NCBI GenBank assembly: GCA_947039455.1
Contig: CAMQZB010000001.1
Location: 143,877 to 207,876, forward strand
From: an uncultured Clostridia bacterium
GTDB lineage: Bacteria > Bacillota > Clostridia > Christensenellales > CAMQZB01
Reading direction: 5' to 3'
DNA: 64,000 nucleotides
The number at the start of each line of letters is the position of its first letter. Position 1 is the stretch's first letter. The position numbers were made by a program, and so were the translations under genes. Positions 56,012 to 60,680 of the stretch are shown here, piece after piece. Under the pieces are notes generated by a model. That model did not search any database and was not told where the DNA came from. It saw only the letters and a list, made by a program, of their open reading frames with translations.

Positions 56012-56050
56012 CATAAAACAAAACAGGGGTGTGCTTATTGCACTCCCCTA
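56012..56050 (-). terminator. Rho-independent terminator overlapping the end of the U32 gene
   Basis: On the minus strand a G/C-rich stem with one mismatch spans the U32 stop codon (56035-56037) and is followed by TGTTTTGTTTT. The same hairpin faces spo0A from the other side. Confidence 0.7.
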
Positions 56051-58281
56051 TTATAATGTCCTTTTGCCATAGGATTAATCAATTCATCATTGATTAATTG
56101 TATAGTTTCATCTCTTGTGTAGTTTGAGTAATCGTACAACTCATTATGCTTTCCACCACTAATATTAATATCAGTATTGTTTAAAAGCGTAAATAAGCAA
56201 CCATTTATTTTAGATTTAGTTAATTTAAAATGACGTTTACTTTCATCTACATATTCAACATTTTTAAATTTACAGTCGTTACAATTACCAACTTTTGCGT
56301 TAATAAGTGGGCAATGCACAAAAGTCATTACGGCAAAACTTCCTTTTGAAAGAACGAAACTGCTTGTACTTAAATTATTCAGTTCCTTACTGTTTAGTTC
56401 TTTTGAAACAGCTAAGTATTTTTCGTTAAACAAATTAGATTTCTCAACCAATTCATTTGATACGTTTAAATTAGTACCTACGAAAAGTTGTATATTGAAT
56501 TGCTTAGCAAGGTTTACGCCATTGTATCCATCAACATAAATACCGTCAAAAGTATACTTTTCCAAAATACCTTCAATATGTGATAAATCTGCTGATGTTA
56601 TGAAATTAGGAATGTATAAATACTTTTCCTTACTAATTTTTTTGATGAATTTTTCGCAAGATTCATTGGTATAGTCAGTTGGTCTAAAAATTGCCACATC
56701 AAAATTGCTAATATAGTCTAAATCAAAATTGTTTTCATTTACAATAATTGCTTTAACTTTTGTATTAGATTTTTCTCTATTAGTTTTAAATGTGTCTAAT
56801 GTTACTTTGTTATTGTCTAAAGGCAAATCTAACTTAATAAATTCTTCAAGATACATCTCGGAAACTTGTCTTTTTAGTCCATTAATTTGACTTTTAACTA
56901 TGAACAATCCGTCTTGAAATTCACCGTTAATATCATGGCAAATAAAGTCAGTATCACCAAGTTTCATAAGCTGAGTTTCAAATGCATCTTTAGTTATTGC
57001 ACTTGTTTTAGCAGGTTCTGGGACAACTTCTGATATGAATTTTGCGGTAATTTGCGGACTAGTCATTGTAATTTCTATTGGTTGACCTAATTTAACAATG
57101 TATGATAGGTTTATAGAAACTTTTGTTTCAAGGTTTTTTACGAAATCTTCGTTAGATTTTGAAGATGTAATTCTAATAACGTCACCAAATCTGATATTCT
57201 TTCCAATTACTTCAAAGCCCTTATTGTCAGTTCTACAAGTTTTTGCAAAAACGGCTCCACCTGCTTCAATGTCTTTTCTGACTACTTTAAATCCGTCGCC
57301 TACAGTAGGTTTATATGAAGTTTCAACATAGCCTTTTTCTCTTGCAACGTCAGTAATAAGCCCAACTTCTCTTCCAATATTGCCTTGTATTTTATTGTAA
57401 ATTACATTGCTTTTTCGTCCGTCAAGATAACCAGTAGAATAATCTCCACGATTAAATGAAGATTTCATATTTTCTTCAATAGATTTAACTTTTTTACCTG
57501 TTTTAACTGATTGACTGTATAATTTCGTAGCAAAATAAACATATTCAGAACTACGCATTCTACCTTCAATTTTGAAACTAGTTACACCAGCTGAAATCAA
57601 ATCTTCAAGTTTTTCAGACATATTTAAATCGTGTGGAGATAGATTGTATCCATCCACTTCAAAGCTTTCGCCTTTAAGTGTCATTTTTTTGCGACATGGT
57701 TGCATACAGCGACCTCTGTTTCCACTGTTTCCGTCAATTATTGAACTGAAATAGCAGTCGCCAGAATAGCAAACACATAATGCGCCTTGTACAAAATACT
57801 CAATTTCAATATCAACAGCTTGATTAATACGTTTAATATTAGCAAGAGATACTTCTCTTGCTAGAATAATACGTGTTGCACCTATTTCTTTAGCGAATTT
57901 AGCGCCCTCAACATTACAAATACCTGCTTGAGTACTTATGTGGATTGGGAAATTAGGTGCACATTTGTGAATGATTTTTGCTAAAGCTAGGTCTTGAATA
58001 ATTATAGCGTCACAACTAGATGAAATTATGAAATTCACATCTTCAAGACAATCGTTAATTTCTTGGTTTTTAACCATAGTGTTTAGAGCTACATATACTT
58101 TCACGCCACGTAAATGGCAATATGTTACTACTTCTTTTAAATTTTCATTATTAAAATTATCAGCTTTTTGGCGTGCATTAAATCTTGAAAGTCCTAGATA
58201 GACTGCATTTGCACCACCGTTAATTGCTGCTTTTAATGAATTAATATTACCAGCAGGCGCTAGTATTTCAATCTTATTTAT
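56035..58281 (-). CDS. U32 family peptidase/RNA hydroxylation protein (RlhA-like), starting at AUA
   Basis: About 748 residues. The frame continues upstream of the first conventional start (GTG, 58104) and encodes the family's conserved opening: IEILAPAGNINSLKAAI, GGANAVYLGLSRFNAR and the stretch to RGVKVYVALNT. No ATG, GTG or TTG lies in that part. The first codon that fits is ATA at 58281-58279, 9 bases after GGAGG and overlapping the pheT stop. The U32 signature (SGDCYFSS ... GNRGRCMQPCR) and a long C-terminal region follow. The two-part size resembles RlhA, which hydroxylates 23S rRNA, so 'peptidase' may be a misnomer. A sequencing error at the start codon is possible. Confidence 0.85.
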   Translation of the reverse strand: MNKIEILAPAGNINSLKAAINGGANAVYLGLSRFNARQKADNFNNENLKEVVTYCHLRGVKVYVALNTMVKNQEINDCLEDVNFIISSSCDAIIIQDLALAKIIHKCAPNFPIHISTQAGICNVEGAKFAKEIGATRIILAREVSLANIKRINQAVDIEIEYFVQGALCVCYSGDCYFSSIIDGNSGNRGRCMQPCRKKMTLKGESFEVDGYNLSPHDLNMSEKLEDLISAGVTSFKIEGRMRSSEYVYFATKLYSQSVKTGKKVKSIEENMKSSFNRGDYSTGYLDGRKSNVIYNKIQGNIGREVGLITDVAREKGYVETSYKPTVGDGFKVVRKDIEAGGAVFAKTCRTDNKGFEVIGKNIRFGDVIRITSSKSNEDFVKNLETKVSINLSYIVKLGQPIEITMTSPQITAKFISEVVPEPAKTSAITKDAFETQLMKLGDTDFICHDINGEFQDGLFIVKSQINGLKRQVSEMYLEEFIKLDLPLDNNKVTLDTFKTNREKSNTKVKAIIVNENNFDLDYISNFDVAIFRPTDYTNESCEKFIKKISKEKYLYIPNFITSADLSHIEGILEKYTFDGIYVDGYNGVNLAKQFNIQLFVGTNLNVSNELVEKSNLFNEKYLAVSKELNSKELNNLSTSSFVLSKGSFAVMTFVHCPLINAKVGNCNDCKFKNVEYVDESKRHFKLTKSKINGCLFTLLNNTDINISGGKHNELYDYSNYTRDETIQLINDELINPMAKGHYNRGVQ

Positions 58282-60680
58282 CGTAGTTTTCCTCCAAGTT
58301 TATTTTCAACTTGACAAATGATGTTAGATACTATTGATTCAATTTCAACGTCAACTAAAGTTTTTTCTAATGAAGAGAATTTACATGTGAATGCTAAGCT
58401 TTTTTTATTAGAAGGAATTTGATCACCTTTATAGATGTCAAACAATGATACACTATAAAGCATATCTGAAGATTCTTCTTTGATAATATCAATTACTTGC
58501 TTCATCTGAATTTGGTCATCAAGTACAAATGCTAAGTCTCTTTCAATTGCTGGATATTTGCTGATTGGTTTGAATTTGATAATACGTCCACATTGAAGTA
58601 AGATTGGTTCTAAATCAATTTCTAAAATCAAAGAACGTTTTGGCAATTCGTATTCGTTAATCAAATCAGGGTGAACCTCACCGAAAGAACCGATTATTTC
58701 GTTATTTACCATAACGTCAGCTGATCGTCCTGGATGTAAATGTTCAGAAGAACTTCTAACAATAGAATAATCTAAATCAATAGTCTCAAAAACTGCTTCA
58801 ACTACGTTTTTAATAGTGAAAAAGTCGCTTTTACTACCATATTCACCTACGCAAAGAGTTTCTTTTTCAAGAGCTAAGTCAGGATTGACAGTATTACCTT
58901 TTAAGTATATTTTTGCAATCTCAAAAATGCTAGCTGATGGATTGTTTTTCTTGCTATTATTTGACATAACTTGGAACATACTGTGAATTAAAGTAGTTCT
59001 CATAACACTTAATTCTTCACCTAATGGATTAAGCAATTTGAACGGATTGTTCTTTTGTGCATTGTTTTCCATTGATAATAGTTTTAAATATTTTGGAGAT
59101 GTGAATGAATATGTGATTGCCTCGTAATATCCATTTTCCACCATTCTATTTTTCAATTCATTAATGTAAGTTTGAGGTTTAGTAAATCCTCCGTTAGTAA
59201 CTGATGCATGTGTTAACAATGTTCCTTGAATATGATCGTAACCGTAGAAACGTATAACTTCTTCCGCTAAATCTGTGTAATCGTGAACGTCATCACGAAA
59301 ACTTGGTATAGTACAGTTTAAGATCCCGTTTTCGATAGTACTATTAAACCCAAGGTTGTTTAAGATTGTATTTATCGTATCAGTTGGAACATCAATTCCT
59401 AAAACATTATTGATTTTTACAACAGGAACAGTTAAAGATGTGCTTTTAATTTCTTCAGTACCTAAATTGATTTCTCCTGAAATAATTCTTCCACAGCCAG
59501 TTAATTCAACTAGGTGTAACGCTCTATCCATTGCTTTTTCAACAGTATAAACATCTACGCCTTTTTCGAATCTTGCTGAAGCATCTGAACGTACTCCGAT
59601 TGCTTTTGAAGTTTTTCTGACTTTATCACGAGCAAATTTAGCCGATTCGAAAGCTACAGTTTTAGTAGTTTCAAATACACCAGAATTTAACCCACCCATA
59701 ATACCAGCAACAGCCATAGGTTTTACACTGTCGGCAATTACTAAAGTGTCTATTGATAATTTTAAATCATCAGCATTTAAAAGTTTAAGCACTTCATCTT
59801 TTTTAGCACTTCTAATATTTATTTCATTACCCTCTACTAATGCCATGTCAAATGCGTGCATAGGTTGCCCTAGTTCAAGTAAAACATAGTTAGTAATGTC
59901 AACAAAGATATTGTGTGAGTTGTGATTTGAATCACGTAATCTTTTTTTCATCCATGCAGGTGTTTCCACCATTTTTATATCTGTTACTATTCTTGATAAA
60001 TACTTCAAACAGTTTGTGTTGTCTTCAATATTCACTTTTACAAGAGTATTGATATTCAAAGAATCGTCGCATGAATAAGTATATTTAGGTTCTTTGATTT
60101 CTTTTGATAAAACAGCTGCAACTTCTCTTGCTACTCCTAAAACTGATTGACAATCAGGACGGTTTGCCGTGATTGAAATGTCGAAAATAACGTCAGTTAA
60201 ATTTAGGTAGTCTATCATGTCAACCCCAATTTTTGCGTCGTCTTTTAGTATTAGTATTCCGTCAAAGCTGGCGCCAGGATAGTCGGCATCAGTGATTCCA
60301 ACTTCTTGTCCTGAACAAAACATACCAAAAGAAACTTCGCCACGAAGCTTTGCTTTTTCAATATGAATATCTCCCACTAAGTCAGCTCCTACAAGAGCTA
60401 CTGGTACTAATGCACCTTCAAAGACATTAGTTGCTGCAGTAACAATTTGGATAATATCTCCATGCACTGATCCAACGTTTACTTGGCAAATTTGCAATTT
60501 ATCAGAATTTTCGTGTTTAGTAATACTAGTGATTTCACCTATTACTACTTTTGAAAAAGCCTTGTTTTGATATATTATTTCTTCAACTTCAAAACCAACA
60601 TTAAGTAGTTTGTCCGCAAGAATTTCTGGTGTAACATCTATGTCAACATATTCACATAACCAATTATATGATACTTTCAT
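58278..60680 (-). CDS. pheT: Phenylalanyl-tRNA synthetase beta subunit
   Basis: An 800-residue PheT. The domains run in the usual order: an N-terminal tRNA-binding (EMAP-like) domain at about 40-150, the B3/B4 editing domain (about 210-380), the B5 domain, the core synthetase-like domain, and a C-terminal anticodon-binding FDX domain (SKYPAIERDLAFV onwards). It forms the alpha2-beta2 enzyme with PheS. The ATG follows AAGGAG and lies 18 bp after pheS. The stop TAA overlaps the AUA start of the U32 gene. Confidence 0.95.
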   Translation of the reverse strand: MKVSYNWLCEYVDIDVTPEILADKLLNVGFEVEEIIYQNKAFSKVVIGEITSITKHENSDKLQICQVNVGSVHGDIIQIVTAATNVFEGALVPVALVGADLVGDIHIEKAKLRGEVSFGMFCSGQEVGITDADYPGASFDGILILKDDAKIGVDMIDYLNLTDVIFDISITANRPDCQSVLGVAREVAAVLSKEIKEPKYTYSCDDSLNINTLVKVNIEDNTNCLKYLSRIVTDIKMVETPAWMKKRLRDSNHNSHNIFVDITNYVLLELGQPMHAFDMALVEGNEINIRSAKKDEVLKLLNADDLKLSIDTLVIADSVKPMAVAGIMGGLNSGVFETTKTVAFESAKFARDKVRKTSKAIGVRSDASARFEKGVDVYTVEKAMDRALHLVELTGCGRIISGEINLGTEEIKSTSLTVPVVKINNVLGIDVPTDTINTILNNLGFNSTIENGILNCTIPSFRDDVHDYTDLAEEVIRFYGYDHIQGTLLTHASVTNGGFTKPQTYINELKNRMVENGYYEAITYSFTSPKYLKLLSMENNAQKNNPFKLLNPLGEELSVMRTTLIHSMFQVMSNNSKKNNPSASIFEIAKIYLKGNTVNPDLALEKETLCVGEYGSKSDFFTIKNVVEAVFETIDLDYSIVRSSSEHLHPGRSADVMVNNEIIGSFGEVHPDLINEYELPKRSLILEIDLEPILLQCGRIIKFKPISKYPAIERDLAFVLDDQIQMKQVIDIIKEESSDMLYSVSLFDIYKGDQIPSNKKSLAFTCKFSSLEKTLVDVEIESIVSNIICQVENKLGGKLR

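Follow-up and report, generated by a model that had tools for sequence, protein, structure and literature searches.

A probable AUA start codon overlapping the pheT stop in an uncultured Clostridia bacterium

In the genome of an uncultured Clostridia bacterium (GCA_947039455.1), the gene downstream of pheT encodes a U32 peptidase-family protein with a DUF3656 domain, and its translation probably begins at an AUA codon that overlaps the pheT stop. The window analysed here is a stretch of 64,000 nucleotides (nt) from contig CAMQZB010000001.1, and all positions are numbered within it. The proposed start at 58281-58279 was reached by elimination: no canonical codon gives the conserved N-terminus of the family, and the AUA stands at an ordinary distance from a Shine-Dalgarno (SD) motif inside pheT.

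The pheT/U32 junction and the conserved N-terminus

The U32 frame is open on the minus strand from 56035 to 58299 and is bounded by an in-frame TAA at 58302. Following this stop it reads ACT TGG AGG AAA ACT ACG ATA AAT AAG ATT GAA ATA CTA GCG CCT GCT GGT, and the 3' end of pheT on the same strand reads CTT GGA GGA AAA CTA CGA TAA (58278). The PheT stop TAA occupies 58280-58278 and with the ATA makes ATAA at 58281-58278, such that stop and start codons share bases. This overlap and its distance of 9 nt from GGAGG had been proposed in the original prediction, and the coordinates are confirmed. The features concerned are listed below.

56035..58281, minus strand: gene for a U32 peptidase-family protein that carries a DUF3656 domain and has 748 amino acids when read from ATA (Pfam and alignment)
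58278..60680, minus strand: pheT, ending ...GGKLR, its stop TAA overlapping ATA
58279..58281, minus strand: ATA, most likely U32/DUF3656 start codon, 9 nt from GGAGG and sharing bases with the pheT stop (ATAA)
58291..58295, minus strand: GGAGG Shine-Dalgarno motif inside the pheT 3' end
58282..58284, minus strand: ACG, alternative start made up of bases from the PheT Leu-Arg codons (CTA CGA), 6 nt from GGAGG
58270..58272, minus strand: ATT, alternative start 18 nt from GGAGG, immediately preceding the E of E-x-L-A-P
58102..58104, minus strand: GTG, first canonical in-frame start codon, rejected as start as it would delete 59 conserved residues
58294..58314, minus strand: predicted 7-bp hairpin within the last pheT codons, 3' arm over the first two G of GGAGG (z = -2.04)

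Between the in-frame stop at 58302 and GTG 58104 the U32 frame contains no ATG, GTG or TTG, in agreement with the original prediction. Its estimate of about 59 conserved N-terminal residues also holds. From ATA to the last codon before GTG 58104 there are 59 codons of conserved family sequence, and 11 of these positions are invariant in an alignment of 13 proteins (E5, L7, P9, G11, A19, A26, Y28, L29, G30, A36, and R37). GTG 58104 is rejected as the start because these residues would be lost, and the candidates are confined to the codons between the stop at 58302 and the conserved Glu at 58269. Across 58240-58330, the only canonical codons in any frame are four TTG. A frameshift artefact concealing one of these was considered and rejected, as three of the four lie upstream of the in-frame stop or of the SD motif and TTG 58271 could serve only if an indel fell within the conserved sequence around E-x-L-A-P. 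A frameshift product fused with PheT was likewise discarded, with no slippery heptamer found at the pheT end when read by eye.

The encoded protein matches Pfam PF01136 (Peptidase_U32; E 2.5e-70) and PF12392 (DUF3656; E 3.5e-15), both above cut-off, and no relatives were found in the PDB by sequence. RlhA, a U32 protein required for 5-hydroxycytidine in 23S rRNA, also carries DUF3656. The U32 motif residues named for RlhA, E161, C169, and C176 (PMC6599085), are invariant in the 13-protein alignment under the same numbers. By domain make-up the gene product resembles RlhA and may share a function in RNA modification.

Starts elsewhere in the genome and among relatives

The rarity of such a start was assessed in a genome sample of 40 stretches plus the window, amounting to 864 kb of 1.85 Mb (~47%). 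All 603 scored open reading frames (ORFs) of this sample were checked for coding statistics ahead of their first canonical start, and four were conspicuous. These were infC, the U32 gene, whose coding statistics extend as far as the ATA region, and two repeat-protein fragments. The latter (L214:10214-11590, minus strand; L228:2499-3146, plus strand) were rejected as missing starts, being repeat-type ORFs, one of them RHS/YD-like, that are probably broken or frameshifted. This leaves infC and the U32 gene as the only two ORFs that have no canonical start but are intact in other respects.

The AUU start of infC, which encodes IF3, is a textbook exception to canonical initiation, and the gene served as an unplanned positive control of the screen. 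In this genome infC (L033:6101-6616 = G000:C1:46101-46616) reads GGGAG-aacagactt-ATT AAT ATT AAG CAT and has no usable ATG, GTG or TTG. Across the order it mostly carries AUU, AUC or AUA at or beside the same place, with several copies having no canonical codon available and one genome (G027, L127) having ATA.

The U32 gene behaves differently in its relatives, of which 131 were compared (51 distinct ones from the same order, plus 80 named loci taken from a scan of a genome collection). In 130 of these a canonical start lies no more than 30 codons upstream of E-x-L-A-P, usually 1-8 codons. Each of the 51 same-order relatives has an ATG, GTG or TTG at a distance of 1-22 codons upstream of the Glu in this motif. 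Among the 80 named loci, 79 have such a codon within 30 codons; the exception has a TTG 36 codons upstream. The rare start is therefore not kept across the related species compared. The ATA lies four residues before the Glu of E-x-L-A-P, which is within the range used by the relatives' starts.

In many families of the order, pheT is directly followed by the U32/DUF3656 gene (junctions in L003, L004, L012, L017, L054-L102). At some junctions the two genes overlap by several codons (L003, L004, L073), while at others they are separated by ~100 nt or more.

Weighing of rival starts and of sequence error

The original prediction held that ATA was the only correctly spaced codon, which goes too far. 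In 122 sampled genes of this genome with GGAGG before ATG, the motif stands 3-13 nt from the start codon, most often 7 nt, and the 6 nt that separate ACG 58284-58282 from the motif are as common (19/122) as the 9 nt of ATA (18/122). AUA is instead favoured because of its spacing together with the homologous start positions, the rules of IF3 and the conserved Leu-Arg end of PheT. IF3 demands Watson-Crick pairs at the first and second bases of the codon (PMC10158994), and AUA retains the two bases that pair with the initiator tRNA. ACG is disfavoured because its second-base mismatch with the initiator anticodon is rejected by IF3 (PMC10158994) and because its bases, the last of the PheT Leu codon and the first two of the Arg codon, lie in a conserved part of PheT. 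Of 49 PheT ends, 45 have an Arg after a hydrophobic residue (Leu in nearly every case) no more than two residues from the stop, and in 28 this Arg is the last residue. As this Leu-Arg usually directly precedes the stop, the CGA codon and the stop position both look ancestral. An ancestral ATG at the ACG site is improbable because CGA would become TGA, ending PheT before its conserved Arg. Despite its good spacing, initiation at ACG is thus very improbable. The same can be said of GTG 58104, although it is the first canonical start in frame, and of a decaying gene whose start was lost as part of the decay. The truncated protein would lack all 11 invariant positions of the first 59 residues, the coding statistics reach the ATA region, and the 748-residue frame is uninterrupted with U32 and DUF3656 domains that match Pfam well.

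Several points weigh against initiation at AUA. One is that AUU 58272-58270 is the codon just ahead of the E-x-L-A-P Glu, the very position at which many relatives have their Met. Ribosomes terminating at the pheT UAA, 5 nt upstream, could reinitiate there to give (M)EILAPAG, and AUU is the start codon of infC in the same genome. However, AUU is 18 nt from GGAGG, a distance seen in 0/122 of the local genes, none of which exceeds 13 nt, leaving it with no usable SD. It also falls inside a predicted hairpin and was weaker than AUA in a Listeria reporter (PMC13068326), such that there is only a slim chance that it is used. A further point is that conservation of the ATA was assessed at the level of the order, where the comparison genomes share neither family nor genus with this bacterium and the nearest PheT identity is ~46%; a peptide-pattern scan of genome contigs for close relatives found none. 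The last concerns the base itself, as this is apparently a draft metagenome-type assembly in which one wrong base could yield ATAA from ATGA. Under a consensus or assembly error, or the calling of a minor variant, the true sequence would be ATGA with an ordinary AUG start. A single base would account for everything, tight overlaps in the genome most often take the form ATGA, and the assembly is fragmented. No 16S rRNA gene was matched in its 31 contigs at 92% completeness, an absence common in short-read metagenome bins. The junction pattern was found once in this genome, which therefore offers no second copy for comparison. Conversely, PheS, PheT, and the U32 protein are all intact, and no other intact gene among the 603 ORFs is start-less except infC, for which AUU is expected, indicating that errors that destroy starts are uncommon here. 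Fixed non-canonical starts were reported in 6/2265 Listeria core genes (PMC13068326), hence a few real ones are expected in a genome of this size. On balance an error is considered unlikely, and AUA 58281-58279 remains the probable start codon.

Origin of the overlap, coupling to pheT and known AUA starts

The original prediction derived the AUA from an ATGA overlap. Such a G-to-A change would turn ATGA into ATAA and leave PheT unaltered, and it is plausible because 29 of the 48 gene pairs with shared stop and start in this genome overlap as ATGA, more than in any other form (eight of the 29 with GGAGG). The AUA itself is best supported by elimination, and its ATGA ancestor is putative. When the junction suggested for comparison was read in same-order relatives, none had ATGA at exactly this place, with TAATG, TGATG, longer overlaps or short gaps found instead. 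Among pheT genes, 2/49 have GGAGG in their last 24 nt. The motif depends on a Gly-Gly in PheT that in relatives is mostly Gly-Ala or Asn-Ala, and a Gly codon contributing to it stands where Ala is the usual residue (Ala 35 and Gly 3 in this column of 45 PheT ends). This Gly-Gly may be a mild sign of a site shaped for initiation.

It is proposed that GGAGG inside pheT would place the 30S subunit 9 nt upstream of the AUA. The initiator tRNA would then pair with the A and U of the codon, while the mismatch at the third base would make initiation weak. By analogy with Staphylococcus, output may be approximately a tenth to a third of that from AUG. Ribosomes finishing pheT at the overlapping UAA would probably increase the local supply. 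In the predicted fold of 58330-58231, a 7-bp hairpin takes up the first two G of GGAGG in its 3' arm, with the fold somewhat better than those of shuffled sequences (z = -2.0; 6/200). Ribosomes translating pheT would be expected to open this hairpin over the motif. At overlaps of the ATGA type, termination followed by reinitiation can link the translation of two genes (PMC6728339), and the overlap geometry and weak predicted hairpin are suggestive of a similar coupling of the U32 gene to pheT. From these sequence features we infer the use of AUA over ACG or AUU, the reduced output, the coupling and the G-to-A origin. It is also conceivable, though decidedly unlikely, that the AUA start places this RlhA-like gene under IF3 control alongside infC, the only other intact start-less gene in the half-genome sample, with both made in greater amounts when IF3 is short.

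The infC start, whether AUU, AUC or AUA, is thought to serve autoregulation of IF3. It resembles the U32 start in being a non-AUG codon of the AUN type with a purine-rich SD ~8-9 nt upstream, but differs in that this rare start is found order-wide whereas the U32 start is canonical in relatives. The rarity of AUA initiation claimed by the original prediction is borne out, though documented cases exist in Staphylococcus aureus and Listeria, where AUA works less well than AUG without being silent, and the U32 gene is a probable further example in the Bacillota and not new biology. Initiation profiling in S. aureus places the infC and ccpN starts at AUA, and in reporters the ccpN and citZ AUA starts gave roughly 10-30% of AUG (PMC13009471). 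Both ccpN and citZ are, like the U32 gene, chromosomal genes of a Bacillota species with AUA behind a good SD. They are supported by profiling and reporters whereas the U32 case is known from sequence alone, and the rare start of ccpN is conserved between species, unlike that of the U32 gene in the relatives compared (PMC13009471).

A further parallel is rsbW of Listeria monocytogenes, in which ATA variants arise at a start overlapping rsbV. The same ATA change was found in two natural strains, and reporter translation followed the order ATG > ATA > ATT (PMC13068326). Both cases have ATA in place of ATG in a downstream gene that overlaps the upstream gene of its operon. In rsbW, however, the overlap is 17 bp and the mutation is recent, selected and alters the upstream protein, while the change at the U32 start would be silent in PheT (PMC13068326). 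The junction also shares a 4-nt stop/start overlap and an SD inside the upstream gene with the ATGA pairs known for termination and reinitiation, which use AUG and UGA where the pheT/U32 junction has AUA and UAA (PMC6728339).

Gene callers limited to ATG, GTG, and TTG would shorten the U32 protein by 59 residues. The combination of a conserved N-terminus, zero canonical codons and a well-spaced SD, with infC as a built-in positive control, provides a recipe for finding real rare starts in other genomes. Provided that the base is real, an uncultured clostridial lineage would supply one more AUA start, here within a stop/start overlap, and the junction would make it simple to test whether a weak start is rescued by overlapping an upstream gene.
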